A stretch of 21,731 nucleotides of DNA from Saccoglossus kowalevskii (lineage: Eukaryota > Hemichordata > Enteropneusta > Harrimaniidae): contig NW_003116447.1 in the NCBI RefSeq assembly GCF_000003605.2, positions 1,216,291 to 1,238,021 of the forward strand. Reading direction: 5' to 3'. The notes beneath the pieces were generated by a model, which had not been told where the DNA came from, made no database searches, and saw only the letters and a program-made list of their open reading frames with translations. The stretch's first letter is position 1, and every line of letters starts with the position of its first letter. The position numbers were made by a program, and so were the translations under genes. Shown here piece after piece: positions 1 through 21,691 of this stretch.

Positions 1-190
1 AAAACAACAATTTTTGATTTATTCAAATTTAATGTTAACCTCCATCTTTTACAGTAATTTGCTAATCTATTTAGAAGACGCTGTAGATCAATGGGAGATT
101 TACTAAATAATGCGAGGTCATCAGCATATAATAAATACATTAATTTTAAAGTGTTTACATAGATTACTTTAGTATGCATTCACCACTATT
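1..190 (-). mobile_element. LINE (non-LTR retrotransposon) reverse transcriptase fragment, YADD motif
   Basis: Read on the minus strand from about 190 down to 1, one frame stays open and gives a reverse-transcriptase palm segment: KLMYLLYADDLALFSKSP, then a leucine-rich helix region, then a WRLTLNLNKSKIVVF-type stretch. The YADD at about 115-126 is the catalytic motif of the palm, and the downstream N-x-x-KSK-x-x-VF pattern is typical of LINE reverse transcriptases. The frame meets TAG and TGA codons just upstream (about 192-205), so the 5' side is broken or decayed; the 3' side runs off the left edge. It lies on the same strand as the SPRY/armadillo gene, beyond that gene's last visible exon, so it is either in an intron or downstream of the gene. 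The clade cannot be fixed from 60 residues; RTE, CR1 or Jockey-like types are possible. Confidence 0.8.
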
Positions 191-362: not shown

Positions 363-510
363 TTGCTCGGTTTAGCATATACATCACGACCAGAGTATCT
401 TATGGTAGGTGACAGAAACAACTGCTTGGTATCAAAGCCTTTAGGTTTCCTCTTGTCATTAAAATGACCTTCCCTTTCCCCCAAAATCTCTCCGCCCATT
501 AACTTGTCAC
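363..510 (-). CDS. Exon 9 (last visible) of SPRY/armadillo gene
   Basis: After ttgtatag the exon reads GDKLMGGEILGEREGHFNDK, then KQLFLSPTIRYSGRDVYAKP. LFLSP-x-I-x-YSG-x-D-x-YA resembles the G[VI]Y-x-SP-x-I-x-x-A-x-x-YA pattern of small PARP-like domains. The donor is AGCAA|GTAAGTC, phase 2, so at least one more coding exon lies beyond the left edge; I found no acceptor with a convincing continuation in 1-355. Confidence 0.82.
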
Positions 511-3500
511 CTATACAACAGAAACAACAATTATTTTATATATCAGACCATACAGCCAATATTATAATAAATATATACATTTATACCACATATTATGACA
601 GTTCAGTGTAATAAAACAGAGCAATAATGTTATCATGTAGTAGTAGTGACACAAAGCCATGTCATATTTAGAGATTATTTTATATCGAACATGAGATATG
701 ATAAATATTTAATTATCAATATATTTTGACACTCAAATTCTTCAAAATGAATGCTGTAATTTATATATTGAACAATTATTATTTATTTGTAAATAATCAT
801 AATGCAGTGTATTATATATAACTACACTGTAACTGTTAACATTATACAATTATTAAACTTCATTATTCACAAATAATTCTAACTTGTTATGATATACAGG
901 TTATTACGAGGATACTGCAAAGTATGCACGAAGACAGTACAGCGGGAGTATCGACCGACGCGCAGTATCCTCGTAGTAACCTCATATCATAACAAGTTAG
1001 AATCTTTTTCTCCCAGGAATACTTCATGGGAATGACGAAATCCAAAACGTTTAGAAGAGATTTAACGAACTTCTTTGTGTGGGGTCCGCTCAAACCCTAG
1101 GGGCAGCCATGCTTTTTTTTTATTATTAGAGGACGCTTACGCGCGTAATCGTTCCATATTTGGAATTTGTGTTTCCTAATATTGTAGGATGAAAATAACC
1201 AGTGCAATACCGCAAAATTACGTCACGGTGACAGATAATAATTATATATAATACCATTGATGATGTCAACTGTTATGTTATTTGAGGTATACTGATAATT
1301 GGTGTAAAAGCTGAATATTTATAAATAATCATATCTGATGTTCATTAGCACATATAACAAAAACGTTTCGTAGCTAGACATATGTGACGTGTGTATTATA
1401 CTTTCCCAAACACATCATGACACTAACCTGGCATAAGTAGATCACCATGTTTAAGAATGGATTCCACATATCTTATAGGCGTGCCATGGAAAGCAACATG
1501 CCATTTTTCGAAAACCTGTAAATCATTGGCTCGTGGTTCAACCCTGTCAATGTATTGTATAAATAAAATGACAGTCAATATCATGTGAATCGACGAATAA
1601 TGGCATCACAAATTCATTATAGAACACTGTTACATCAATAACCAAAGAATAGTGATAAATATATTCAAAGGTTATTAAATAAATAAGTAATTACAGTTTA
1701 GACAATGAATAAAACAGTATTTAATAAACAGTGATTTGATTGCCCTTACTTTAAAGCGAACCGACACCAACCAATTGGCATAGCATAATCTCTCATTGGC
1801 TGGCCACGTGTATAGTATAACTGATCACCTCTCTCAGCATGACAACTTGTGCAATAACACATATCAAAACTGTTGTCAAAATAACACTCTACGAAAAAAT
1901 TGAAAGAAATGATTAGTAATGTAATGTCTGACGTTCAATGTCATGACTTGATAAGTGCGAGTCCACAAGTTTTAAATAAAAGATAAATATGAAGTTTACT
2001 GAGAATCGTCCAGTACCATTTAATTTCAGTGATTTCTTAAACCTCTCACATTTCTGCTGATATTCACATCTTCCCCCAGATACCCGTGTTGATATACCTA
2101 CAAATGAATAACCAATATTTGTTAATGATTCCTATAGTTATTACTTTCTCCACATAAATAAGAAATCGTTTGAAATTATTTTGAAAAATTCTGAAGCTCC
2201 ATACGATACACCGCAGTAATAGAAATGCTGAATATAAATCAGTATACCTGTGTACTTACCACTGGGATATAATGATAGTAGTACCCTGTCTGCAGCTTGT
2301 TTCAGTTCAACATTTGCGTATTTGGAATATTGTAGAAGTGATGATTTTAGCTCTTTCACCTTCACCATCCTTTTTTTATTTTTTTCCAGTTGAGATATTA
2401 CCCATAATGTGTTCATTGCACCTTCCACCACCACAGGTTCATCTAGCTTTAGCATATCAACCAACAGTGGTACTGCACCTTGGTCCACGATGGTTACTTT
2501 ATTTTGGTCGCAGGCAGCTATATTGCCAAGCCCTACAACGATTTCTGAAGCTGAATAGCCCCCATCGTCCGACTTCCCTAGTAACCGAGGGTCATCAATG
2601 GCACGTTTCAAAATTTCCAGGATGTAAGCAATGTACGACTCTTTTGGTTCTATGTAATGAATCTTGTCACTCTCGATAATGTAGGATAAAGTCAGAAGAG
2701 TCATCGTCGCCACCTCTCTGTCATCGGATTGTAGAAGTGGAGAGATTCTTTCAATCACATGATGTTTATGATAAACATGCCTATTCACAGCAGCTTTAGC
2801 GCAATTATGTAATATACCCAATTTCTTTACATCAATTTGTCCCTGCAACAGAACATATTCAAATAAAATAAGTAGTAGCGGTATGTAAATTCACTCACAA
2901 TGACAGTACTCCAATATTGTTGAAAGAACAGTTATAGTACTGAAGATCACAATACAAAGAGCTTATTGACGGGGCATTTGGGTGCTGTAGTTCCATGTAA
3001 CCTATGTACATGGAGTACATATTATCCAAAGACAACATCCGAAACGGGACGAGATACGTGATGCCATTAGGCTCTTACCTGCTTTTCTGTTATACAATGA
3101 CTTACATCATTGATTATAATTTCCAGAAGACCGCTTTCCCCAAACTCTTTGCAAAGGTTGAAACTTGCATGTGAATAATTCAAGCACGTTGCAATAACAA
3201 TATCCATTCCAAACTCAGCGTTCATTGTGCGCATGCGTTTCACCAGCTTAGTCAGCTCCATTGCACCACCAATATCAGCCAGATAGTCCCCGAATCTCAT
3301 CAGACAATATTGAGCATCCAGGGAAACCTGTAGCAGATTTTCTTGGACAAGCTTGACTACAGCATGAGTATCCATTCCAGTTTGTGCCTTCAGATCATCT
3401 ATAGCTTTCTTCACTATTATTTATAAATATAAATGATATACATGAATGTTACATATAAAAAAGTCACGCCTGTAACTTTCGCATTGTAACCTGTTCCCCC

Positions 3501-6407
3501 AGGTTAGTGGGGTATATTTCTTTGGAGAAATGGAAATAAAATAGGTAACATAGAACGACTCGCCTTTCTTGTATATATAGTAGAAGTATATCATTAGCAT
3601 TTTGAAATAGCCATTGACAGTAGAAGAATGAAATTTAAACTGGTTGTGTGAGCGATTGAAGGAATACAGGTGCCGGTATGTTTGATCTACTTTTTATAAC
3701 CATACCTTTGTTTATCATCCAATCAGAATCCTCATGGAGTCGAACCATTTCACCTACCGAGTTCAAACCAATAGCAGGAAACCATCCATTGGTTGGTAAT
3801 TCACATACTACAGTGCCAACCTAAACATAGAAGTGGGATGTGACATGTATGATTATAATTGAAACATTGGTGTTGATGAAATCATTTTACCAATAAATAA
3901 TGATCTTTTATTTACTGATTATGAAAATAATATAGTATATGAATGAAATACACATAAATTACTCTAACCTCTTTGCCATTTTTTGTAAAGAACACGGGTA
4001 ATGTTTTCTGTGCAGAATCGCCATATTTCATTTGGTTAAATTTAATTCCACATCCCATTACATCTCCTGTATGACATTTATCACCAAACGGTGTACCAGT
4101 ACTACTTTCTTTATACAATCTACAAAATGATATAGAAAACATTAATTTGTAGTAAAAAATGTATCTCTTTTCTCATGTTTATGTAAGTATTATGTGGACG
4201 TTTTCTTCTTGATTATCATTGGTTAATGTGGATAGTCAGTCGTTTGTTTGGTGGACTCAGAGTGGGATTGTATTGCACTTGGAAGTCAAAACTAGTAAAC
4301 TGTGTGTTCTTTTTTTTAAATGTTTTTTGTACCAGGCGACAGTTCCGGACATTGAATTCCACTGTTGTCTCTCCTGACTTTTTTTTGTATGTGCAAATTG
4401 CAAGTGCTGACACATGGTGCATTTTTGCTGCAGAAGTCATATTCATGTTTGGGACTACGTGACAGGGCTGTGCTGCCATCTTCCTATCAAATGGTAATTT
4501 TAATGTGCTATCCTGGCGTCAACCAGGCTCGGTTGAACACAAGCACCTGCGGACCTTAACCAAGCTTCCCCAAAGTCGCACCCTTTCGTGAATGAATCTC
4601 GGCCAGTGGAATAGGCCTTCTTATTGAGTCTGTTGCACACTCACCCAGGGTAGGGGTCGACCCTTTTGAACTTAGGTCTACCGATCATGAGTCTGATGCG
4701 ACAACCACTTGCTACCAGTGTGTTCTTAATCCAATTTGATATACTATACCAACATTCTATAGATATACCTTGTGTGAGTGTGTATGTAACAATGTCGCAC
4801 AATGTGTAACAAAATTACAAAACTACTCAAATTTGAATTTGAATACGAACGGTATTTTCAAAGAAGGTCATTGCATAACGAATTGGTTGGGCAAATCAAA
4901 CTCATTACTGACTGTATGAATCTTTTATTCTATGTTTTTATATATTGCCTCAAAGCTTGCAAATAGAAGTGTGTATGGAATCATGGGAAGAACCGGTGTG
5001 CATTGCCGTATGATAACTGTCATAAAGGTGATTGACAGGTCATACTTGTTTGCCACCCTGGAAGGATAGTTTGAATATACCAGGTGTGCTTGTGATTTCC
5101 ATAACAAAGCATGTTTGCAACTCTGGAAGGATATTTGGAATATACCAGGTGTGCTTGTGATTTACATAACAAAGGATGTTTACAACTTTGGAAGGATATT
5201 TGGAATATACCAGGTGTGCTTGTGATTTACATAACAAAGGATGTTTACGATCTACTGAGTTGTTTATGTGAGTGTCTGGTGTCATCGTGAAATAATGTTC
5301 TATAAATGAGCTAGACTGAGGACAGTTGGGATTTTCAATTTCACTTCTGTGTGCTACAATAATAAGTGATACAGGCTTCAATCATCATTCTGTGAGACTT
5401 CTATGAACTACTCTGCGATCTCCTGCTATGAGCGGTACCCTCCAGAATAACAGCGTTCCTCTGCTAGCAAGAATCCTGTATGTTGTTGAAAGAAGCCATT
5501 GACTGTCAATTTCTACATTTTGGAACTGTGAGTTGTCACCAATACACATTTCCCTAGACAATCCCCTATTTTAGTGAGTTTATTTATTGTATTATTTTGT
5601 GCTTTGTTATTCATTATTTATTTTGAGAGGTATTAAAGCCAGTAGATTTAACTTCATATTTTGGTGTATGTGTATTTCATGTTCAGTACTGTTGTCTTGT
5701 CTACCCCTATGTGAGTTCTGTGGGTGTCCTTCTCAACATCAATAAGCAGGCCTTACTTACTTTCCATCATCAGCATGGTATCCGACGGAGTATTCACGCC
5801 ATCCTGGTTGGTGGGGTAACTTATATCCTTCCGGAACTAACCCCATTGTTATTGCCCCTAATTCACCTTGGTCCAGAATTTCAATCTATTCGAGGTAATA
5901 TACAACAAATTTATTATAAATGACTTGGATTTAATATCATACAGAATGACGACAGTCACAGGTAGAGAAGGGTGTGCTCATATTTCTGATATCTCTGTTT
6001 AACTGTACATCATTAAATGATGATGACAATGTGATGTGTATAATTTGACAACTCGCTGAAAATAAAGCTCCGTGAAAAGTGTTCTGAATAGAAGACTCAT
6101 GTGGCAGTATGTATTATAGTAGTGTGATTACATAGGGTGGGCGAACGGATCAAAAGGATGATGATTTTAAAAATACACAAAGGCTAAAGCAATTAAAAAA
6201 GTCATTATAGATAGATATGAACAAAAATACTGAACATTACCTCAAAATAACTCTGTTCAGGAGAAAGAGTATAATCAGTAATATAAAGTCCATTCCCCCC
6301 TGTACCATCTTCTTTATAAGTCAGTATGCTGTTGTCACGTGAAACTCTTTTACTCCTTGCTCTACCTGTCGTAATTCGGACACCACATTTATTTCTGTGT
6401 TCCATTC
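363..6407 (-). CDS. SPRY - armadillo repeat - Cys-rich - ADP-ribosyltransferase-like multidomain protein (3' incomplete)
   Basis: Nine exons can be joined on the minus strand: 6407-6241, 5885-5761, 4119-3969, 3820-3706, 3413-3079, 2842-2260, 1888-1750, 1543-1428 and 510-363. All junctions are GT-AG and all eight phases agree, giving at least 625 residues without a stop if the ATG at 6405-6403 is the start. Visible domains: SPRY (about 20-180), armadillo-type helical repeats (about 186-490), a Cys-rich segment C-x8-C-x-C-x2-C-H (about 493-507), and a C-terminal region with W-x4-HGT (552-559) and SP-x3-YSG-x3-YA (about 610-622). SPRY and armadillo domains bind proteins. HGT followed by a Y-containing motif recalls the histidine and tyrosine of PARP/ART folds, but this is inference and no catalytic glutamate is visible because the C-terminus is missing. 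No signal peptide or membrane segment is seen, so a cytosolic or nuclear role is likely. The start is uncertain: 6407 is also a good splice acceptor, so coding exons may lie further upstream. Confidence 0.82.
511..1427 (-). other. Intron of SPRY/armadillo gene containing a long hairpin
   Basis: AT-rich intron between exons 8 and 9 with no coding potential. Its only visible structure is the inverted repeat at 876-1003 and a T9 run at about 1112-1120. Confidence 0.7.
876..1003. repeat. Long inverted repeat (hairpin), arms about 42 bp, loop about 43 bp
   Basis: The left arm 876-918 (attctaacttgttatgatat ... gaggatactgc) is almost the exact reverse complement of 962-1003, with one single-base indel and one or two mismatches. 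The 43-base spacer is slightly richer in GC than the flanks. There is no obvious target-site duplication. It may be a fold-back element or a transcribed hairpin, since it lies within an intron of an expressed-looking gene. Confidence 0.85.
1428..1543 (-). CDS. Exon 8 of SPRY/armadillo gene (HGT motif)
   Basis: Reads VEPRANDLQVFEKWHVAFHG, then TPIRYVESILKHGDLLMPG. W-H-V-A-F-HGT-x5-V-x-SIL-x-x-G-x-L recalls the first part of a PARP/ART-like fold (HG[ST] then a helix ending in ILxxG). The acceptor attgacag lacks a strong pyrimidine tract but gives the only phase-consistent junction; the donor is CCAG|GTTAGT. Confidence 0.82.
1750..1888 (-). CDS. Exon 7 of SPRY/armadillo gene (Cys-rich segment)
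   Basis: Acceptor ttttttcgtag, donor TTAAA|GTAAGG. It reads ECYFDNSFDMCYCTSCHAER, then GDQLYY, then MPIGWCRFALK. The C-x8-C-x-C-x2-CH cluster looks zinc-binding (inference), and the IGWCRFAL motif follows directly. Enters phase 1 and leaves phase 2. Too short and divided to be seen as a long open frame. Confidence 0.85.
2260..2842 (-). CDS. Exon 6 of SPRY/armadillo gene (main armadillo repeats)
   Basis: This 583-bp exon starts after tgttgcag and ends at AGTG|GTAAGTACA (phase 1). It encodes about 194 residues with recognisable armadillo repeats: LLQSDDREVATMTLLTLSYI, EIVVGLGNIAACDQNKVTIV, QGAVPLLVDMLKLDEPVVVE and GAMNTLWVISQ. The G-A-V-P-L-L-V-x-M-L and the L-x-N-I-A motifs are diagnostic. 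Reading on past the donor is open for 39 more codons, but this is intron: the next exon joins perfectly by phase. Confidence 0.92.
3079..3413 (-). CDS. Exon 5 of SPRY/armadillo gene (first armadillo region)
   Basis: The acceptor ataatag precedes TG-AAG-AAA, which completes a Val codon from exon 4. The 111 codons are helical and contain armadillo-like helices such as LLQVSLDAQYCLMRFGDYLA and SHASFNLCKEFGESGLLEII. The donor is CAG|GTAAGAG, phase 0. Confidence 0.85.
3706..3820 (-). CDS. Exon 4 of SPRY/armadillo gene (end of SPRY)
   Basis: Encodes VGTVVCELPTNGWFPAIGLN and a following GEMVRLHEDSDW, the last SPRY strands (FPAIGL-x-S-x-GE). The acceptor is tatgtttag and the donor is AAAG|GTATGG. 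It starts at phase 0 and ends at phase 1; 38 codons plus one base. Confidence 0.88.
3969..4119 (-). CDS. Exon 3 of SPRY/armadillo gene (SPRY second half)
   Basis: After the acceptor cattttgtag the exon supplies the last base of a Lys codon and continues LYKESSTGTPFGDKCHTGD, then GCGIKF, then PVFFTKNGKE. The pattern F-G-x6-GD-x-GCG and FFTKNG is the classic C-terminal half of SPRY. The donor is GAG|GTTAGA at phase 0. Confidence 0.9.
4500..4725 (-). mobile_element. tRNA-derived SINE-like segment
   Basis: On the minus strand the sequence from about 4716 reads GGTAGCAAGTGG, a close match to a tRNA/Pol III box A, then CAGACTCATGATC (an anticodon-loop-like stretch), then a box-B-like AGTTCAAAAGG starting near 4672, 44 bases after box A as in tRNAs. 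A second box-B-like GGGTCGACCCC lies at 4663-4653. The segment is clearly richer in GC than its surroundings and continues into a non-tRNA body. The tRNA cloverleaf is degenerate, so this is not a working tRNA gene. The 3' boundary is not visible; it may extend to an A-rich run near 4380. Confidence 0.45.
5047..5250. repeat. 65-bp minisatellite, three copies plus a partial fourth
   Basis: Units start at 5047, 5112, 5177 and 5242 with exact 65-base spacing; the fourth breaks off after about nine bases. Copies two and three are nearly identical and copy one is more diverged. The unit contains ggaagg, gaatataccaggtgtgcttg and cataacaaag. The unit length is not a multiple of three and the array lies in an intron, so it is not coding. 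Confidence 0.9.
5761..5885 (-). CDS. Exon 2 of SPRY/armadillo gene (SPRY core)
   Basis: This 125-bp exon is easy to miss because the longest open frame here is on the opposite strand. On the minus strand it reads IEILDQGELGAITMGL, then PGW, then VGYHADDGK. IEI-LD-G, PGW and GYHADDG are the central SPRY signature. The acceptor is cgaatag at 5887-5886 and the donor is GGAAA|GTAAGTAAGG. It enters in phase 0 and leaves in phase 2, exactly what the neighbouring exons need. Confidence 0.9.
5886..6240 (-). other. Intron between the first two SPRY exons
   Basis: A 355-bp AT-rich intron with matching GT-AG borders and phase 0. I see nothing else in it. Confidence 0.7.
6241..6407 (-). CDS. Exon 1 (first seen) of SPRY/armadillo gene
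   Basis: The exon begins after a pyrimidine-rich acceptor (ttttgttttag) and ends at TTTGAG|GTAATG, phase 0. The ATG at 6405-6403 has purine at -3 and G at +4 and could be the start; equally, the two bases GA before it may continue a codon from an upstream exon. It encodes the N-terminal edge of the SPRY domain, with NGLYITDYTLSPEQSYFE at its end; the SYFE strand is a SPRY hallmark. Confidence 0.8.
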
Positions 6408-8092: not shown

Positions 8093-8155
8093 CAGTGAGC
8101 CTATTTCTGTGTCTTCGCATTTCACATCAAGATCTAGACTATAATAACGTGTAAC

Positions 8156-8228
8156 ATGCAGGTTCCACGGCAAAGTTGTATTGCGTTGTTCTTTTGTTTT
8201 ATCGTCTGTGTGTGCTGTCAGTCTCAAT
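8156..8228 (+). CDS. Exon 1 of inhibitor gene 1 (signal peptide)
   Basis: ATG at 8156-8158 with A at -3 opens a frame for 24 residues with a strongly hydrophobic core. It ends at CAAT|GTAAGTATC, a near-consensus donor, leaving phase 1. The T left over joins AT of exon 2 to make Tyr25. Confidence 0.8.
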
Positions 8229-11200
8229 GTAAGTATCCATTCTGCTCAACTTTGATTCGCAGTTACTCAAATGTAGTATCATGCTCTAAAAAATCGGTTC
8301 TCTTACAAGTTGCTAAACTTAGTCCTTAAAATACATTGGACTTATTGGAATATACAAATTTAGCTAGTACTAATTGAGCTGAGCGCATTTAATCAGCAAG
8401 ATCGAAAACCCGTTACTGTTAGACATTATTTGTGACGACTGGATTTTCAAATATTACAAAACAAACAAAGCCGATGGACATCTACCTCACAACTTGAGCA
8501 CTTAAACATTTATTAACGTTTGCCAATACAAGAACTTGTTTATTCTTTAACGGCGTTGTAATTCAGTGGGCGGATTTCTTCGCAGATGGCGGAGAACAAA
8601 ATAACAGTACATGTTTTTGGTTGTGAATTCAGGTGTTCGTAATGAATCATGGGAATCGGTTTTGTTGTGAATATCTAATGAATAATAATTATGGTTCAGG
8701 TAAAAAGCGCACATATTTTATAATTAATTATTTTAATTACTAATATGTAAATTGTTTCCCGAAGCAAAATATGTGCGCAAACATACTGACTTTATTGACG
8801 GTAAAAAACTCAAAATAACTGTATTAAATTTATTTTATTTTTGAAAAAAAAATCGAGGTCATTATAACAGACAAAATAAATACGAAAGCTTAATACGTTA
8901 TATCACCTAAAGTGTTTTAGCCATTTTTTTATGTTTTAAATCAAAACTTAAACAGTACATATGTGGTACCAAAGAACACGCGTGATGGTATAACATATCA
9001 TATGGCGTATATTTATGATAACTAGATGATGGAAATGAATTGCATTGTAATTGCATTTTCCCAGTGTCTGCATGTTGTTTGCATGTGTAGCATGAACATC
9101 CCATCCCATGAACAGTTTACAATATGTGTATTCGTTTGATACCACAAAAGTCATCTGTGCTCATTGTTTCACACCTTAAACTATATGGCGAAAATGACAA
9201 AAACACGTGGGATATAGTAATAACACCTGGCGTGTTACACAGTATATCAGAAAAATTTTGCCATTTATATAATGAATTAACCTTATTAATCTGTGGCTTC
9301 CTTGTTTTTGCTATCGCGGACCTAGCAGATAATTTACCAGGATAACGTGCGATTTAACGCTTACATTCTTGTGTTGATAAGTGTCTGTATGGCTAAAATG
9401 CAAAACAAATATGACCTCAAATTGCCGTCTATCGTCGCGCCATATTTGGCATTGGATTATTAATTTGAATTTCTGAGGCGCAAAAACAGACACCGTCAAA
9501 CAAAAAATAGCCTGTATTAAACAAACGTTTTGGGGTGCAGTAGTTTTATTTTAGGTAACTTGAGAAAATGATTTTGTCTGTGGAAAAGTCAACGATATAT
9601 TCAGTGTCTAATTTGAAGTTAATAGTTTTTTCTCAGCTAGGACTGCATTAACATTCAAATCAATTTATCGGACGTAAGAAATACATACATATACTATAGT
9701 TATCTGAAAATGGGATGATGTGACACTGAACCCTTGGTCAGATTTGTCAGAGTGGGCGATATTTACATGCGATATTTACCGCAATGGATCCTGCTATAGC
9801 AAAAGCGGAAGAATACACGCAATGCGCACGAGTTCACCAGCAATAACCTTGAAATTTACTAGTAATTGAAATTTTTTACAGACAAGTCGAGGTTCTGGTC
9901 ATAAATAGCCCGCATTTGGTCACCTTTCTATTCGATAAATGTGCGCATCACCCCCATAGCGGGGCTCATAACGCCCACTCTGACAACGCCATGAGTCCAT
10001 GGCTACATAACCAAAGAACGACAACAAAAATACTATGATTTCACATTATCGTGGGGCGATTCTGTCTGTCTGTCTGTACGTCACATAACACTAAATTATC
10101 TCCAGAGGGCGCGATACTTGGCCGCCATTGTGTAGGTGATATATCTAAAGGGCTCATACCACTAATTGAATTTCCATAGACGACAATGTTAACATATGAC
10201 GAGATTGCTATATGAAAATAACGAAGAAAGTTGAAAATATGGCTCAAAAATGGGAAATCAACATGCCAGTAATCAACCATATGAAAAAACTAACATGTTG
10301 GCCAGCTCAAACTCTTGCAAATCTCAGGTAAACAAGACACACCTACTGTATTTGAATTGCACCAAGAAAAATCACTGGAAAAACACCAAGATTAGAACAT
10401 CCATTAACACACAGAATAAACCCACAGGTACACAGCCGCTAATTAGTAAAAAAAAGACCACATGTTGGTCTCACCTCTGACCCAGGTGATTACGCCCTCA
10501 AACAGAGAGCACCTGAGAAAAATAATATTTAAAAAATTTCATTGGTTCTTGCTGGGCATTTAAATTGGTTAATTAGTGGCATGAGACCTAAATGGGAGAT
10601 GGTAGAAAAATGGTTTATTTAGTTTTGCAGAAGACAAAAATCTCAAACTTGTGTGAAAAATTCAATATAACGCCTTTTGGATGTGGGGTTCTATTACTCT
10701 CAGGCTCGCACAAATGAGAGAATTTAGTTTCTAAGACCATGCTGTTGTAAACAAAATGTTACTGTTCCTCTGTTAAACTTGTGTGTTTGAGTTTTTATAT
10801 AACTTTTTTACGACCCCACCTCAAAGAAATACTGCACCAGAATTGCTAATTGTCATTGTTATTTGTTTAGATAAATCTGAAGCACAAAAGAAGCGAGATT
10901 ATCTGGCTCAACAACAACAGGAATGGCGTGACAAAACCGACCGTGTACCGGGAGGGGAAGTGAACAACCCATACGTGGCCTATCAACGGTACCAAAACGT
11001 CTACAATCAATTGAGGTCAGGATCTGAGTTTGCAGAGCCAAACAGGGACGGCATGGGACGCACCGCCAACTCCAAGGCGTACGGCACACATGCGATTGCT
11101 AACCAAGGGTATCCAAATAGCGACCCATATTACAACGCCAACGCCAATCGACGCTGGTATAAGGAAACATACCGCGATAAAAACAATGACGATTCAGATG

Positions 11201-12702
11201 GTTACTACAAACACGATGATCACTGGCACGCTGAAAATATTGATCCTCGCTATGGCTCGCCACTTGGACGCGACGGAAGGTATGATACTAACTATCGTAC
11301 CAACAGCAAATATTATAGAGATCAGGATTATATCAATCGTCAGAACGCACTCAACGCCGGGACGGCTGGCAGTAAAACTGGATACGCAAAACCCGGATAT
11401 TGTCCAATTATATCCGAGAAATTAGCTGGAAACTGCCGAAAGATTTGTAATTCGGATAAAGAATGTCCGGGATACAAAATTTGTTGTCAGAATTCGTGCG
11501 GTGGTACGGCTTGTTTGGACCCGTTAGATGAGGGTAAGTAAGCTCCGATTTCCCATTACATGTACTATTATGGCAATTCGAACTTCTGCCCAACAGCTTC
11601 ATTGAACTTGATAATTTGATTGATCTTATTTAAAAAGCGTGTTCTAGTATATAGCGTTCGTTCTTTAGTGACGAGGCGATGCGGTTGCGGCGTAAGTCGT
11701 TTTAGTTATCTATGGCCGTCATTCAATAAATTATACAGTTTTTAAGGGATTTGGTATTTTCCACAACTTCACAACAAAGTAACGTTGTATATTTGAAAGA
11801 AACGTCTTGCACCTATATATTTTGACATCATTTTAACGTCACTGAATTATTTCCTTTGCCTGAGGGCGCCAGTTATTGTAACGCTGTGAAGTGCGGTCAC
11901 GTGACATTGCATCTGTCTGAATATACGATTTTTTCTTGTTATTCATAATATTCAATTATAGATCCATGCAAGGACTATCAGTGTCCACTTCCGGGACAAG
12001 TGTGCATTAATGAAGGCTCGCATGCGTGGTGTGCATGTGAGGCTATATGTCCTGATACGTATGAACCGGTGTGTGGAGACAACAAACAAATGTACAACAA
12101 CAAGTGTTACATGAATATGTACGCCTGTGAATTTAAAACAAATATTAATGAGATAGCTTGCGATGTGCTCGGAATTAAAGTCGATGCGAGGCAATCGAGT
12201 AAGTATTACAAAATATTTCGGATGTACTGTACTATGTATTGAATATGTTAGAAAGTTTGTTTCACCGCTTCGCCTTTTTAAACACCTTTTAAACTACTGT
12301 TTGAGGCATGACCAGCCTCAAAGTTTGTGCAATATACCGGTATTTACAAACACAAACTTGTTTCGTTTTAAAGTGGTAAATGTGGACGTGCAATGCTGTT
12401 TCAACCTCGAGATGACTACCTAAACATTGTAAATTAGTATGACTGTTTTGATCACGTGGCCATTTCCAGTATGTCATAAAAGTTGTGTATGAAACAATAA
12501 CTTCTTTTGTCCGCATTTCACGACAACTGTGCTGTGAAATATTAATAATAACATGTATAGTTCAAGCATTTTCACGCGCCTGTAAATAATGAGTTTTCTT
12601 TTAATTCACGCAGGATATGGATATAATTCAGCAACACATACAGAGGGCGCTGCAATGATAACAATTGCGTTAGCGTTAATAGCGTGCATATTGCAGGTAT
12701 AA
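8156..12702 (+). CDS. Secreted, probably GPI-anchored WAP + follistatin/Kazal protein (inhibitor gene 1)
   Basis: Four exons (8156-8228, 10871-11533, 11962-12198, 12614-12702) join with GT-AG borders, all in phase 1, to a 353-residue protein. Residues 1-24 are a signal peptide (MQVPRQSC then LFFCFIVCVCC). Residues 26-200 form a low-complexity Tyr/Asn/Asp/Arg/Gly-rich segment. Residues 202-240 are a WAP four-disulfide core with all eight Cys (CP...C...C..D..C....CC...C....C). Residues 248-312 are a follistatin-type module with ten Cys, whose second half is Kazal-like (PVCG...YNNKC.....AC). Residues 337-353 are a hydrophobic tail ending at the stop, preceded by small residues (NSA, GAA), as in a GPI-attachment signal. 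WAP and Kazal domains commonly inhibit serine proteases, but the actual target is unknown. The likely site is the outer cell surface. The start has A at -3, and the only upstream signal is a weak TATA element. Confidence 0.88.
9744..9986. mobile_element. MITE-like element with 15-bp terminal inverted repeats
   Basis: TTGTCAGAGTGGGCG at 9744-9758 is repeated exactly in inverse orientation at 9972-9986, enclosing 243 bp with no coding potential. Just inside the left end, gcgatatttac occurs twice in tandem (13-bp spacing). The inside is richer in GC than the surrounding intron. No target-site duplication is clear at either end, so superfamily cannot be assigned; CAGAG termini would suit several DNA-transposon groups. 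Confidence 0.6.
10061..10076. repeat. (TCTG)4 microsatellite
   Basis: Four perfect TCTG units followed by a CTCF-like CAGAGGGCGC about 27 bases downstream. Confidence 0.9.
10871..11533 (+). CDS. Exon 2 of inhibitor gene 1 (low-complexity segment + WAP)
   Basis: Acceptor ttatttgtttag, donor GAGG|GTAAGTAAG, phase 1 on both sides (symmetric 1-1 exon). The first 175 residues are hydrophilic with many Tyr, Asn, Asp, Gly and Arg and no Cys. The last 45 residues form the WAP module with eight Cys (CPIISEK, GNCRKICNSDKECPGYK, ICCQNSCGG, TAC). The open frame upstream of 10871 is intron: it would start inside a hydrophobic stretch with no signal-peptide context. Confidence 0.92.
11962..12198 (+). CDS. 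Exon 3 of inhibitor gene 1 (follistatin/Kazal module)
   Basis: Acceptor ttcaattatag, donor TCGA|GTAAGTA, phase 1-1. It encodes the ten-Cys follistatin-type module: DPCKDYQC, QVCINEGSHAWCACEAIC, then TYEPVCGDN and YNNKCYMNMYAC, ending INEIAC. The EGF-like and Kazal-like halves are both present. Confidence 0.93.
12614..12702 (+). CDS. Exon 4 of inhibitor gene 1 (GPI-anchor-like tail)
   Basis: Acceptor aattcacgcag. The exon encodes RYGYNSATHTEGAAMITIAL and a few more hydrophobic residues, ending CILQV and stop TAA at 12700-12702. A hydrophobic run at the very C-terminus with no following charge is the usual GPI-attachment signal. A GAGGGCGC motif lies in frame within this exon (12643-12650). 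Confidence 0.82.
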
Positions 12703-13708
12703 TATTAATATTATATAATAATACATGAAAATGTGTGCATTATTATTCGGGGTTTTATGACAATGACACCCAGTTTGCTGAATGTGTTATTTGGTTGCTT
12801 TGATAGATGGTACAGCTGGTGTGGTGATGGTACTGATGACTTTCTGGTGACGTCATAGAGGATGAGTCATGTGTATGAAACACCAGTTCTCTTCAATCAC
12901 AGTAATTCAATTTCTCGTGTTGTACATTTACGGGAATGTAATTAAAAAATCTACGAATTTAAACAAACGCGTTCAATATGAAAACAATATGATAATTGTT
13001 TGGTGATTTCACCCAATGGTATATTTTTTGGTGGTGTACACTCCAGTATATTTTCCGCTCAGATGTGCGTACACTTTAAACACTTACGTGACTGCCAGTA
13101 GTAACTGTATTTGCAAATATATCACAATCACGAAAAATGAGACAAGGGAATCAAATCTAGTTCAGTTTAACACAATTAATCCGAATAACCGTTCAAGTGA
13201 TGGGTCGTCTCACTTATTCAGTTGTGATGATTCCTGGTGGATAGTTTATTTTTGCATGCGTTGCGAACCAAAATATCGAATTCTGAGTTCTGTATATATG
13301 TTATGTAATCGTCTTTCCTTCACTGTTGAATGGACTGTGTCTCGCTTCGGATTCGGTCAAAAGTCACTTAAATTGTCAATTGTGCTTTTAAATTAATTAG
13401 TTTAGACAAACTTTAAGAAGTGTTTTTGTTTTTCTTCTATTTGTTATGTTGCATTACTATAATCAGTAATTCGTACTTCTACTCTCTAACGTGTCTATAA
13501 TCTGTTATTACATTTTTGTCGGAATGAACTCGTTTCGGCAACTTATTGTTGTATGTTATGAATATTAAATAGCGATGACGTCACGTTCTTAGTATTAGGT
13601 GTCGAGTCAATATTTAGCGCAGTGTATGAATTACGTCATCAATATATGTAAATATGCACAATTCGAAATAATTTCACTGTAATTTAACTTTCTGTTTATA
13701 TCAAAGTA

Positions 13709-13714
13709 AATAAA
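13709..13714 (+). terminator. Candidate polyadenylation signal of inhibitor gene 1
   Basis: AATAAA followed by a moderately T-rich stretch (catgtatttatatctgttac). Chosen because it is the first canonical hexamer downstream of the stop codon. Confidence 0.4.
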
Positions 13715-13804
13715 AATGGATATGAACCATGTATTTATATCTGTTACGTATTCGAATTTATGTACACTCGTGAATATGTTCGCCTGACATGATTGGGAAT
13801 AGGC

Positions 13805-13861
13805 ATTGCGCCCTCGCCGACGTAGTTTGAATCCATATGAATCCGTTGTTGAGGGCGCAAT
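13805..13861. repeat. Short inverted repeat built from two GAGGGCGC motifs
   Basis: attgcgccctcgccgacg (13805-13822) and its near reverse complement at 13844-13861 share 11 perfect end bases and differ at three inner positions. The 21-base spacer contains a short direct repeat (gaatcc). The two motif copies face each other. Confidence 0.7.
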
Positions 13862-14290
13862 AACTATCGCCGACCATGTTAGGGTCTGTTAGGGTATGAG
13901 TATGGGAGACTAACTTGGTGTACCTTGTCAGTCATCTACACTGCTGGTCGCCAATACAGTTTTACCATTTTCAACATATACTAACCTTTTTTCATTCTTA
14001 GAATACGAATACGATATATTTTTGCTATAATTCTATTGGTGCACGCCTCATAAACTTCATCTGTTGAAAATATAATTTTACTCCCAATATTGCCATGTCT
14101 CTTGTGATCAGAGGAGCACGTGACACTAAGACGTCATCGATATTAGGCTAAAAATCTGCTTCGCGGATTCGTCGATTTTTACATTTCCTGTTTGCGTCTT
14201 ATCTTATGTGTTAGACTGAATGATGATCTAGACTTCTGAAGAAGAGTAGTGATTGTGCACAATGGGAGAATACATAATTATACAGTTATG

Positions 14291-14297
14291 TATAAAT
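14291..14297 (+). promoter_or_regulatory. TATA-like element upstream of inhibitor gene 2
   Basis: TATAAAT, about 260 bases before the start codon at 14560; it fits only if the 5' UTR is about 230 bases. Weak evidence in AT-rich DNA. Confidence 0.2.
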
Positions 14298-14559
14298 AAG
14301 ACCCAATAAATAATATTTTATTAAATATTCATCCATCACACACAATAACTAATTGGTGCCACGCCCTGCATTCCGATGTATTATTACACTCCACTGGTAG
14401 TGACGATTATGAACGTACAGCATATGTTCTCCTGGTGACAGCTCGGACCATGATTATTAATCAGTATACATACACAAGTGCGTCATTTAGTTCATTTCAT
14501 ATATCCTATTCACATTGCAAGCCACTTATCAGCAAAAACAACCAGGTCGTGAATTCAAA

Positions 14560-14626
14560 ATGGGTCTAACGATGGCGATCCTAAAAGTGTTATTACTGTG
14601 TTGCTACTCGCAGATAATTCTCACTG
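14560..14626 (+). CDS. Exon 1 of inhibitor gene 2 (signal peptide)
   Basis: Strong start context (aaaATGG) and a hydrophobic 22-residue leader, ending at CACTG|GTACGTATG in phase 1. The last G completes an Ala codon with CC of exon 2. Confidence 0.78.
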
Positions 14627-17600
14627 GTACGTATGTCGATCATAATCTGGGTATGAGAGGAAGAGGAATATTGCTTTTATATTAATATACACAATTGTGG
14701 CCTGCGATGGAAATAAATTGACAGATCTAAGTAATTATGTCATTCGGCGGAATGTATATTTTGTTTGATTTACTGAGACACAATTTATTAAAGACTTAAA
14801 GTGTGTCAATATGTTGTTCTCTATTGCATTTTGGCATACACACAGGGTATGTAGTAATTTACGCCCGGCTTTAAGTATATTAATAATCATGTACTTTTAA
14901 TTGGATCGTACACATTAGCATTATCCCACGTAACTTTACAGGTATTGGTTCATTATTTCATATACTAACAACACTTCCTTTTTAATTAGTTTGTGGTAAA
15001 TTATGATCTATTGTATTTCCAAAAAAGAAAAAACACGCACATCTACAATCTATAGTGTTAATATCTAACAAATGGCCCAATTTACTAAAACTAGTTTACC
15101 ACTGTCACGAACACAGTCAGGGTGCTATGGAGTTTATTTGATTTGTTATATTAAGTTGAAAATTATGTCGATTTATGTTATAGGTTTATAATTTTAATTG
15201 GCAAGATTATTGGTAACTATAACATACTTACCCGGTAATAAATATATATATGTCTTTTATTATATCACCCACACTGACCGTTTACCATATGGATCAATCA
15301 GAAAAAAGGGCTGTATATATTTGTACTTTGAAAAATACGTAAAAATCATTGGACGATAATACATAAATATGTCAAATTACAAAGTTACTAATTCGCAATC
15401 ATATACAGATGGAATAATTATGTTCAATTTAATGTTTGTTTGATGTCAAAATACTGAGCAACACCCACGTAAGCTAATGCCGATTTTGTTATTCTTTAAT
15501 GTTTTCACCAACGTCCACTTTGCCTTCCAGCAATAATTTCAGTTGTATTAAATGTTCTAGTCTAATTTGTAATTTTGTTGTGTTATTGATGTTTAAAAAT
15601 AGAACAAAAATTCTAATAACCCTTTCCGAAAATGCCACAATAGTTCCGACGAATGTGCTTCGTCCAAACAATTGTACTGTCCGGATGAATTATATTTAAT
15701 AATAAATTATACATGAGAATATTATGTAACGCTATTATAGCTGCCATTGGCGAGTATTATGCTCATTCTGTCATAAGAGATGTTTTTATTGGTTGTTGTC
15801 TATAATTTCTTGATGTCTTTTAGTATAACATGTATCCTTCACAACCTTGCTAGTGTCCACAGCAATATATACACCAGTATGTGCGCGTAACTTTCTTGTA
15901 CGTGTTTTGGGATAGTGTTATTCATAATCCATGCTAATTGATGTGTAGTTATCTTCTCCAGCCAAGGACCATTATGAATGGCCGGCTTTAGCGAAACTGT
16001 GCGATTCGGACAATTATGTGTAGTTAGCATTCTTCGGGACAGTTAATGACTTTATCGTATAGTGTCCGCAACATCATCAGTTAATAATACACCTCGCTTC
16101 CAATGGAAGCAGTGAAACTCATATGGGAAGTTGTCAACAGAATAATGAGACACAATGGTTTGTTGACACTTGTCTTTCTATTGTATCTTCACGCCATGCG
16201 TGATTGTTTTAGTGAAAAATTATCGCAAGTCACCCAAGGTTTCAGTACACCTCTGAAAACACAAAACAATTTCTAATAGACAAACAAGGTTATTTTGTAG
16301 AAACTATAGCAATATGTCTGTGTTTGATAAGTATTCATCCCTCGTACTCTCACCTGGGTTATTGAAAATTAGGTCAAAAAACAACTAATGTAGTAGTAGA
16401 GGGGAAAAACATTCACTGGATTAAATTTAGGGATTTGATGTTGCATGCACATTCACTATGCCTTTAACTTAACTGACCCGTAAAGAAATCAATACTTGTA
16501 TTCTACGATGAATATTCACTGGATATTAATTTAGAGCATGAGCCCGACGAGTCACGTGAGTTGCGCCCTCAGCGGTGCTCCAAACAATCAGCGAAGATCA
16601 GAAAAACCCGATTTATAATTAAGTCCGATACAGGCTTATATTCAGAGTCGAATTATATATGCACCGATTACTGCTATCCTAAACAATATGTAATCGTTAC
16701 ACTCATCACCAAGACCGCGTCTCTAAATACACCGTGTCGCAGTTAATCCAATGTCAATGTGAGGTACAAACTTGGACATGCTTTTGTAAAACATTGTGTA
16801 TTCATTTATTATTATGCTCCACAAAGAACATGCTTCGTAATCTACCGTATCATAGCAACAAAATGAAGATCATTTTCCATCGTAATTGTATTTCTATTTT
16901 TAATCCTGTTTCAATCACAGCCGCGTTTATCTTCAAAAACAAACCCGACCCGTGTGAAAAATACCGATGTAAGCAACAGGGTGAGGTATGTATTTCATAC
17001 AAGGGAATGTTTGCCCTGTGTAAATGTGTCAACATTAAAGATTGCCCGTCAACGTATCAACCAGTCTGCACAAACCACGGCGACCTCTACCACAACCAAT
17101 GCCACCTGGACGCCACGGCATGCATCAAAGGTATCAAGATCCCTGCAAAATCGTGCAAAAACATCGGTATGTACAAAACATCGTCTGTATTTGTTGATAG
17201 ACTGCAGTGCTTTCGCCGATAGTTAAAGTGGGAGGGTCGTTACCTGCGCACGCGCTGGAATTGAGTCCCGAGCAATGATAACAAACGCTAAAAACGCTAA
17301 GGCTCATGGGTTGACGCTTGTTTGTAAACAATGACACACTATGACACGCATGCGCAGGTGACGGCACCCCCGCTTTAAAAATATCATAAATGTGCATGTA
17401 ATTAGCATCACGTTCTACTATTGAGCTGAACCACGAAATAGAGCCAATACATATTACAATTACCAATAACTGCTTTACATACATTTACGTATATTTATAA
17501 CGAGTCGTGTTAGACACTTTTTTGTAATTTACTGTATTTAATTACACAAATAGTTCTAATATCTATTAAGTAATAATAATAATAATTTCCACTATGTTTA

Positions 17601-17994
17601 GTTCGACAAATACGAAATCGATGAATTGGTTCGTCGAAAAGTGATTTCGCCGTATATCATAGATATCATGTTGTTCATGAATACATGGCGTTATATTTTT
17701 ACTCGAACATCATCGCACTTTTGAAATCTGACTGATGCTTTGATGTGTATATTTCCAGGTGAAGATTACACCACCGAAATGCCGCTCAGTACCGATGCAC
17801 ATGACTGGCCATCTTTCAGCACGGACACCCCTCTCAGCACGGATATCCCTCTCAGCACGGATACCCCTCTCAGCTCGGATATCCCTCTCAGTACGGACAT
17901 CCCTCTCAGTACGGACACCCCTCTCAGTACGGACACCCCTCTCAGTACGGACACTCCACACCACTGGCACAAAAAGGGAAAACGCTTTTTTTAA
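14560..17994 (+). CDS. Secreted follistatin/Kazal protein with PLSTD-repeat tail (inhibitor gene 2)
   Basis: Three exons (14560-14626, 16921-17166, 17759-17994), joined in phase 1, give 182 residues. Residues 1-22 are a signal peptide (MGLTMAILKVLLLCCYSQ). Residues 34-101 are a ten-Cys follistatin/Kazal module (C34, 39, 46, 56, 58, 64, 72, 83, 90, 101) that aligns with the module of gene 1 through DPC, V-C-I, CPSTYQPVC and Y-x-N-x-C. Residues 129-170 are seven tandem PLS[TS]D[TI] hexapeptides, rich in Ser/Thr/Pro and likely O-glycosylated (inference), followed by a basic end (HHWHKKGKRFF). No membrane or GPI signal is seen, so a soluble secreted protein is likely. Protease inhibition is the common role of Kazal modules, but growth-factor or matrix binding is also known for follistatin modules. 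There is no WAP exon in the 2.3-kb first intron. The start has A at -3 and G at +4. Confidence 0.86.
14627..16920 (+). other. Intron 1 of inhibitor gene 2
   Basis: A 2.3-kb AT-rich intron with one GCGCCCTC motif (16563-16570). Open frames of 60-66 codons (15489-15699 on both strands, 15839-16030 minus, 16561-16746 plus) have no domain or conserved Cys pattern and are probably chance. Confidence 0.6.
16921..17166 (+). CDS. Exon 2 of inhibitor gene 2 (follistatin/Kazal module)
   Basis: Acceptor gtttcaatcacag, donor ATCG|GTATGTA; a symmetric phase 1-1 exon. It reads DPCEKYRCKQQGEVC, then LCKC, then DCPSTYQPVCTNHGD, YHNQCHLDATAC and KSC. GC content is clearly higher than in the flanking introns, as expected for coding DNA. 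Confidence 0.93.
17167..17758 (+). other. Intron 2 of inhibitor gene 2
   Basis: A 592-bp intron occupied in its first part by the TTAA-flanked element; a (TAA)n run lies at about 17573-17586. The minus-strand open frame 17134-17484 crosses exon, element and intron and is not a gene. Confidence 0.7.
17227..17374. mobile_element. 148-bp MITE flanked by TTAA target duplications
   Basis: A segment with imperfect inverted ends of about 28 bp (left AGTGGGAGGG...ACCTGCGCA, right the reverse complement of AGCGGGGGTG...ACCTGCGCA) is bordered on both sides by TTAA (17223-17226 and 17375-17378). The inside is partly palindromic too (caatgataacaaac against gtttgtaaacaatg), so the whole element could fold into one hairpin. 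TTAA duplications are typical of the piggyBac superfamily (established knowledge); assignment here is inference. It lies in intron 2 of inhibitor gene 2. Confidence 0.65.
17759..17994 (+). CDS. Exon 3 of inhibitor gene 2 (PLSTD repeats and C-terminus)
   Basis: Acceptor tatatttccag. The frame set by exon 2 reads EDYTTEMPLSTD, a variable stretch, seven hexapeptides, then HHWHKKGKRFF and TAA at 17992-17994. The array is open in several frames on both strands because its 18-bp unit is divisible by three; the spliced phase picks this one. Confidence 0.85.
17830..17955 (+). repeat. Coding minisatellite: seven 18-bp units (PLS[TS]D[TI])
   Basis: Units of CCTCTCAG[CT][AT]CGGA[CT]A[CT][CT] start at 17830, 17848, 17866, 17884, 17902, 17920 and 17938. 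Early units carry AGC/GAT and later ones AGT/GAC, so the array has two sequence blocks; units 5 and 6 are identical. Diverged relatives lie before it (17779-17796 and 17812-17829). Confidence 0.95.
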
Positions 17995-20586: not shown

Positions 20587-20940
20587 TTAACAAAAAGTGA
20601 TCAAAAAACTAATGCAATCGCATTCATAAAATAAATGTTCTATAGTTTCCAGACTCGACTGGCAGAATGTGCACAGAGCAGTTTCTGTTTTTCCCATTTT
20701 AATAAAACTATAGTTTGTAGCTAAAAACCTATGAATGATTTTATATTGAAAGGCTTGCAATTTGGTTTCTTTGGTTATTTTGAACGGTCTAGCAAATATT
20801 AAATGCCATTCATTATCTGGCTCGCCTAAAATTGATTCCCATTTATACATGATTTTACTTGGAAATTGTGTAATTTCATTCACTAGATGGTTATAGACAT
20901 TTTTTGAAGGTTTTCCAGTGAAAATTAACAAGTTCAGCAT
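20587..20940 (-). pseudogene. LINE ORF2 fragment, C-terminal Cys/His motif region
   Basis: A second frame continues the same protein: ETKLQAFQYKIIHRFLATNY, then ALCTFCQSSLETIEHLFYEC. The C-x2-C-x8-H-x4-C pattern is the zinc-ribbon-like motif found downstream of the reverse transcriptase in L1-like elements. Ends prematurely at TAA 20589-20587. Confidence 0.85.
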
Positions 20941-21691
20941 GTTTTCCTTCTTTTTCTATTTCCGTTTTCCATTTCTTTGGAATTGATAATAAAGTCGATT
21001 GGTATGTAATAAAATCACTTTTCAAGTTATATTGTTGTTGGAACTCTCCGTATGACATAAATGTTCCATCTGGATTAACTAAATCATTAACGTAGTTTAT
21101 TCCTTCGTTGTGCCACTTTGAAATAAATATAGTTTTGTTACCTTTTTGAATTTCCCAGTTAAACCACAATGTTTGACCCAGACAGTCCTTTGCTGTCTTA
21201 ATTTGTCTAGTACTATCTGTCACCCTGCTCCATATGTTCGTTATTTCCCGCCAAAATTCATTACTAACCTGATCGCATATTGTACGTAGCCCATTGCTCA
21301 TATAATTCCAAACAAATTTCCCACCACAGAAAGCAAAAACTATGTTAAACATTTGTTTCCATGGACTGGAACTTTGGATTGAGAGAGACCTTTTTATCCA
21401 GGACACCTTCTGACTTTTAATTACGCTCGTTATGTGTGGTATTTTCACTCCTCCAGAGTATATATTATTTACCAGAATTGTTCTACTAACCCTATCCCCC
21501 TTACCATTCCATACAAAATTATATAACAATTGTTCTAATTCTTTTATTTTTTGTGAAGGTGAAGGCAGGATTGAGAATAAATCATTAAATTTTGGCAATA
21601 TTAGGCTTTCGATGACAGTTATTTTTCCAATTATCGTCAGGTTTCTTTGTTTCCAAATGTTCAGCAGCCGTTTACTTTCCTTAATTTTATC
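20891..21691 (-). pseudogene. LINE ORF2 fragment, post-palm region
   Basis: Open from just after an in-frame TGA (21694-21692) to a stop at 20891. It carries the LINE signature NLTIIGKITVIE followed by WNGK, GGVKIP and SWIKR. The last ~16 codons are out of register because of the frameshift. Confidence 0.85.

Follow-up and report, generated by a model that had tools for sequence, protein, structure and literature searches.

NEURL4 is described, in the excerpt of PMC5617467 used here, as an adaptor-like protein with six NHR domains, and Table 1 of PMC7955679, likewise drawn on in part, assigns to its ADP-ribosyltransferase (ART)-like domain the motifs HGS, LLS and ELE and the triad H-L-E. Two reviews, cited here from excerpts, report that NEURL4 is needed for mitochondrial ADP-ribosylation (PMC9149570, PMC8003356). 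Here we analyze a gene of the hemichordate Saccoglossus kowalevskii whose predicted product combines a SPRYD3-type SPRY domain, armadillo (ARM) repeats, a Cys/His cluster and a C-terminal part that resembles this ART-like domain. SPRY domains recognize short peptides or faces of other proteins, and extended peptides are bound by ARM solenoids. The gene lies on the minus strand, at 6407-363, of a stretch of 21,731 nucleotides (contig NW_003116447.1, C993 below, positions 1,216,291 to 1,238,021), the whole of which we call the window. Judged from its sequence, the window protein is probably, though by no means certainly, a target-recruited ADP-ribosyltransferase with a NEURL4-type ART domain; zinc binding, NAD+ binding, catalysis and target recruitment are predictions. 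Its parts and the type of ART domain are already known, and what appears to be new is the combination: the order of SPRYD3-type SPRY, ARM, Cys cluster and NEURL4-type ART, and the family with swapped fronts to which it belongs. No SPRY-ARM-ART protein was found by title among the open-access papers listed, so that the statement of a first-pass annotation of the window, that no well-described animal protein has this order, is not contradicted there, although the combination may already be described.

Results and Discussion

The window gene comprises ten exons, all with an AG acceptor and a GT donor at boundaries re-derived from the sequence, where the first-pass annotation had counted nine. As it had stated, the exons are consistent in phase: the spliced gene stays open over 643 codons and has 0 stops in this frame, compared with 48 and 63 stops in the remaining two frames. 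The SPRY, armadillo, Cys-cluster and ART-like parts follow in the order that it gave, and both motifs that it described, W-x4-HGT and SP-x3-YSG-x3-YA, are found. The exons are as follows.

Exon 1, 6241..6407, minus strand: Met at 6405-6403 (start unproven) and beginning of the SPRYD3-type SPRY; AG/GT, open frame; protein residues 14-179 match 2yyo
Exon 2, 5761..5885, minus strand: SPRY; Pfam SPRY at residues 52-174
Exon 3, 3969..4119, minus strand: SPRY; 57% identical to paralog L022
Exon 4, 3706..3820, minus strand: end of SPRY; 59% to paralog L022
Exon 5, 3106..3413, minus strand: stretch ahead of and into ARM; homologous in paralogs, for example 38% to L026
Exon 6, 2260..2842, minus strand: armadillo repeats; Pfam Arm at residues 400-435, E 1.8e-6; 47% to L027
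Exon 7, 2017..2097, minus strand: first Cys pair, C-x5-C; both Cys in 9 of 10 aligned tails
Exon 8, 1750..1888, minus strand: C-x-C-x2-C-H cluster; C37, C39, C42 and H43 invariant in 10 of 10 aligned tails
Exon 9, 1428..1543, minus strand: WHVAFHGT; ART-like first strand and helix; HGT in 12 of 13 rows; in register with PARP
Exon 10, 363..510, minus strand: QLFLSPTIRYSGRDVYA; ART-like second-strand region; S-P and two Tyr columns invariant in the aligned tails

A spliced aligner given the window protein as query reproduced identical exons on the window, a circular result that only proves that the aligner works. Independent support comes from the tail exon pieces, which match 33 other genomic places at 44-68% identity. 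Exon lengths recur as well among the nine other full gene models of the family, which were themselves built with the window protein as query: 139 nucleotides for exon 8 in the window gene and in seven of the nine, 116 for exon 9 (five of nine) and 148 for exon 10 (eight of nine). The window gene is a real multi-exon animal gene. Its exon 1 opens two bases 5' of an ATG, behind an acceptor judged good by eye, so the gene may have a 5' leader exon further upstream; the start Met is unproven because the frame also remains open upstream of this ATG. Searching the window by tblastn with an SPSB-type SPRY, an NHR and the gene's own SPRY gave no additional piece. Two introns hold repeats: a 65-base unit in 3.1 tandem copies in intron 2 (5047-5246) and, in intron 9 (871-1008), an inverted repeat whose 25-base arms are 92% complementary and which is perhaps a small transposon-like element.

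The SPRY domain is matched by Pfam PF00622 at residues 52-174 (E 2.5e-12, 47.4 bits against a cut-off of 26.3) and is of SPRYD3 type by comparison with solved structures, 2yyo ranking first (E 5e-41), followed by RanBP10 (3.5e-19) and RanBP9. One armadillo repeat is found by Pfam PF00514 at residues 400-435 (E 1.8e-6, 28.2 bits against 20.6), and among solved structures designed Arm proteins and Vac8 match with E 4e-8 to 2e-6. Profile searches, which had been proposed as a check of the domain assignments, thus put SPRY and Arm over the Pfam cut-off, whereas the tail stays below that for PARP.

The tail, that is, the Cys cluster with the ART-like part, recurs in the same genome. Within the 572 Mb (megabases) and 4830 contigs searched, the window gene tail matches at least 37 exon places, four of them its own exons, and these group into about 17 loci, spread over 13 contigs, if the window gene is counted and two places on C3979 are taken as one. 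Two pairs look much alike, perhaps as alleles or recent copies of each other (C1110 with C1286:1956, and C1212 with C1286:17448). Seventeen fetched stretches were modeled with the spliced aligner, the query being the window protein extended by the last exon of locus L026, and full or near-full tails running through a terminal exon were obtained at nine loci (L022, L023, L024, L026-L030 and L032). Locus L031 gave a divergent tail; L025, L033-L035, L037 and L038 are partial, L025 being traceable to exon 8 only, and L036 holds parts of exons 10 and 11 and may form one gene with L037. L038 (C1110:1-8000), a near copy of L034, has a stop in the Cys exon and may be a broken copy, an allele or a base error.

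Ahead of this tail the loci differ. The succession of ARM and tail known from the window gene is seen in six of the nine other full models (L023, L024 and L026-L029), and tblastn with the window protein detected no ARM in the stretches fetched for L030-L032. At seven loci, L023-L029, tblastn places an NHR, one each in the fetched stretches, in two exons upstream of ARM; the NHR pieces scanned, those of L023, L026, L028 and L029, are all above the Pfam Neuralized cut-off. An SPSB-type SPRY stands ahead of the NHR at L023 (through L045), L024, L025, L026 (through L043) and L028, the pieces from L024 and L028 falling below the Pfam SPRY cut-off, and the regions ahead of L027 and L029 are largely N. 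L022, the closest relative of the window gene by tail identity (69%), has one SPRYD3-type SPRY about 270 bases ahead of the tail with no ARM between, and two further copies upstream (L022/L042) make three SPRYD3-type SPRY domains in a row, perhaps all within one gene. Cys cluster and ART tail are thus kept across this expanded family and the fronts are swapped, the front types being SPSB-type SPRY with NHR and ARM, SPRYD3-type SPRY with ARM (the window gene) and tandem SPRYD3-type SPRY without ARM (L022). Outside this genome no relative was confirmed among viral contigs (1 and 84 pattern matches) or bacterial and archaeal genomes (212 pattern matches), and phages gave three records with a best E of 0.6. 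Two NCBIfam families matched one tail each (best E 0.006) and were taken for chance.

Conservation of the tail was read from an alignment of ten tails, nine of which include the terminal exon, and from an extended set with four more rows, in which HGT could be scored in 13 and the terminal exon in 11; L038 was excluded as a near copy of L034. The Cys cluster of the window protein reads C-x5-C ... C-x-C-x2-C-H. In the ten-tail alignment C37, C39, C42, H43, HGT, S-P and both exon 10 Tyr are invariant, and the first Cys pair is present in nine rows, the tenth being cut before it; the cluster probably binds zinc, to judge by this pattern. In the extended set HGT is kept in 12 of the 13 rows, the window gene among them (L038 also has HGT), FLS in nine of the 11 rows that cover it, again with the window gene (L030 has FVS, L031 CVT), and the second Glu of a terminal-exon motif E-x-E-W in 10 of 11, the form there being E[ILC]EW. 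The exception for HGT and for the Glu is L031, with RGV in place of HGT, ELVW in place of E-x-E-W and C-x-C-x2-C-R in the cluster (His replaced by R), and this joint loss of HGT, second Glu and cluster His fits residues that work together. L031 (C4171:618790-621412) is a candidate for a natural pseudo-enzyme, and a C-type-lectin-like frame, judged by eye, lies upstream of it. A tree of 14 tails is little resolved, with one of 11 inner branches starred; L030, L031, L032 and L037 stand apart at 92/99, below the starred level.

The terminal exon follows exon 10 in the paralogs and reads FQV-x-IRPxSYxVGxETIG ... ID..FSNxE[IL]EWxTKERGxVIPYGLLIKL, with N-x-E-x-E-W in all nine of the aligned tails that reach it. 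It was found at 11 places genome-wide, every one at a family locus. A leftward extension in search of a catalytic Glu, as the first-pass annotation had advised, thus meets a further exon with a candidate for such a Glu in the paralogs, whereas at the window gene it runs into N: approximately 19.5 kb (kilobases) of it, at about 1196806-1216290 of C993, border the window on the left (9791 of 9901 bases in L021 and 9794 of 10000 in L040). An apparent loss of the terminal exon, hinted at by L021 downstream of the gene, was dropped, L021 and L040 being almost all N. By its paralogs, the window gene is predicted to have a terminal E-x-E-W exon as well.

We compared the tail with PARP. The PARP alignment held four sequences, human PARP1 and three PARP pieces of the same genome (L046-L048, with the rows of L047 and L048 hand-cut to the domain); a further fetched PARP locus, L049, was omitted, its domain being split over exons. 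With hhalign, the 14-row tail profile scored 30.6 against this alignment (E 1.8e-4), the top score of 120 column shuffles being 21.8, that of the reversed alignment 14.8, and those of NHR, SPSB and ARM decoys 13.5, 14.8 and 11.9. HGT falls over HGT and the SYxVG segment over SYTAG, and when the second Glu is placed by eye on the catalytic Glu of PARP1, Val at +9 and Leu-Leu at +14/+15 coincide in L026 and PARP1. These scores point to similarity of the tail to the ART superfamily at the level of profiles. The ART-like call of the first-pass annotation drew on short motifs; it gains support from the E-x-E-W of the terminal exon in the paralogs, by the profile-profile match to PARP and by the NHR domains of the paralogs; what emerges is a NEURL4-type domain that does not reach PF00644. 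The sole NHR compared with solved structures, that of L028, has KIAA1787, which we take to be NEURL4, as its best match (E 1.2e-22; fly neuralized 0.005). The H-Y-E triad is incomplete: His is kept, Glu is kept in the paralogs, and the presumed Tyr position, assigned by analogy with the published LLS of NEURL4, is occupied by Phe in 10 of 11 rows. The interpretation given in the first-pass annotation is supported in part. We read the tail as NEURL4-type rather than PARP-type because this presumed middle residue is F, not Tyr, and because PF00644 is not reached.

Several results weigh against an active ART domain in the window protein. The hhalign probability for tail and PARP alignment is just 48%, and the Glu strands do not align by themselves even under permissive alignment, hence their placement by eye. 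With human PARP1 alone as template the probability drops to 0.8%, nine of 200 shuffles do as well, and no sensible forced global alignment results. Pfam PARP (PF00644) is matched by two of ten tails, with a best E of 0.2 and 11.6 bits in one row against a gathering threshold of 26.7, and unrelated Pfam families beat it in single tails (YL1_C 0.017, DUF5846 0.03). The last 161 residues of the window protein have no Pfam match up to E 1 and nothing convincing in the PDB (best E 0.35), and a search of the PDB with the tail profile returned nothing up to E 10. None of the 11 terminal exons is on C993, the window's contig, an absence that means little because the adjoining sequence is N. As to NEURL4, none of the searched collections yielded a NEURL4 tail; the excerpted table lists its own activity as not determined (PMC7955679), and PMC10450202, also cited in part, terms it PARP-like instead of a PARP. 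A genome-wide search with Pfam Neuralized gave nine places, of which eight belong to family loci and one, a full domain, lies on C3046, and revealed no NEURL4 with six NHR domains, which is weak evidence since the same search missed the NHRs of L024 and L025.

If the tail is active, the SPRY or NHR and ARM parts would hold a protein target, the HGT strand of the ART domain would hold NAD+, and the ART domain would transfer ADP-ribose to the held target using the second Glu of the terminal-exon E-x-E-W. A constant tail behind changing fronts is how enzymes that are sent to different targets are built, which favors target recruitment, and the reported need for NEURL4 in mitochondrial ADP-ribosylation favors a target-recruited ADP-ribosyltransferase. 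The tail might instead be a pseudo-enzyme or a binder of ADP-ribose or peptides, and the protein might serve ubiquitin ligation as a scaffold or adaptor, like NEURL4 with HERC2, a reading that we find unlikely but deserving of attention. Phe in place of Tyr at the presumed middle triad position speaks for it, as do the adaptor-like description of NEURL4 and the listing of its activity; yet nearly all rows retain HGT and the second Glu, L031 has lost both together, and the excerpted reviews report NEURL4 as active in mitochondria.

Two further alternatives concern the window gene itself. That it is a decaying copy, having lost its own terminal exon while the family stays active, strikes us as improbable: the lack of a terminal exon on C993 and the reverse-transcriptase sequence at 3-179, which adjoins the last exon seen, would agree with decay, but the next 19.5 kb or so are N, the 643 codons run without a stop and the tail motifs are intact through exon 10. 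Far less credible still is that SPRY-ARM and Cys-ART are two neighboring genes fused in the first-pass model. The gene model is known from genomic sequence alone, and L022 has SPRY and tail without ARM, as such a fusion would allow; against this, the phases fit across all ten exons and the order of ARM and then tail returns in six of the nine other full models. The target-recruited ADP-ribosyltransferase remains the reading that we prefer.

The remainder of the window holds the following features.

3-179, minus strand, left window edge: piece of a reverse transcriptase, RVT_1 E 4e-10
8155-17200, plus strand: divergent neighbor; by eye, it starts near 8155 and its first exon resembles a signal peptide; domain matches are WAP (E 2.6e-9) and, on two exons, Kazal-type
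17816-17954: 18-base tandem repeat in 7.7 copies, open in several frames; one plus strand frame gives STDTPL repeats, directly after the second Kazal exon
20587-21691, minus strand, right window edge: frames of presumably LINE-like (long interspersed nuclear element) style; a 266-residue frame has no Pfam match

The divergent neighbor probably encodes a secreted protease-inhibitor-like protein.

Conclusions

NEURL4 is among the least understood PARP-like animal proteins, and a tail multiplied with varied binding modules offers natural variants, L031 without His and Glu included, that could help to tell which residues act and to what the binding modules bind. If our reading is true, the known reach of ADP-ribosylation would extend beyond the PARPs. 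More tentatively, and with doubts that outweigh our confidence, the family might be a lineage-expanded set of target-recruited ADP-ribosyltransferases of TRIM-like build, in which a NEURL4-type ART replaces the RING and SPRY, NHR and ARM are swapped, possibly for immunity or conflict.

Among known systems, PARP/ARTD proteins (PF00644) share with the family tail an HGT strand and an F-x-V-x-x-x-x-SYxxG segment that align in order, whereas the family lies below the Pfam cut-off, lacks the Tyr at the YFA position and has a Cys cluster in front; its loci are absent from the 12 places at which PARP was reported in the genome. The window gene has its SPRY type in common with SPRYD3, RanBP9 and RanBP10 and joins it to ARM and the ART-like tail. 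The SPRY of paralog L024 is like that of the SPRY-SOCS proteins SPSB1/2/4 (SPSB4 E 1e-21), and in the paralogs this SPSB-type SPRY is followed by NHR, ARM, Cys cluster and ART. LRRC9 and TASOR, too, are large multidomain proteins with a divergent ART-like domain according to the excerpts of PMC7955679 and PMC10450202, with triads that lack His (Y-V-K and L-Y-Q; PMC7955679), whereas the family of the window gene keeps it. Compared with NEURL4, the family shows HGT and FLS and, on the terminal exon of the paralogs, E[IL]E for HGS, LLS and ELE (PMC7955679, in part), in the same order; in place of the six NHRs of NEURL4 (PMC5617467, in part), none was seen in the window gene (tblastn with one paralog NHR) and one each in seven paralogs, and SPRY and ARM parts have been added.

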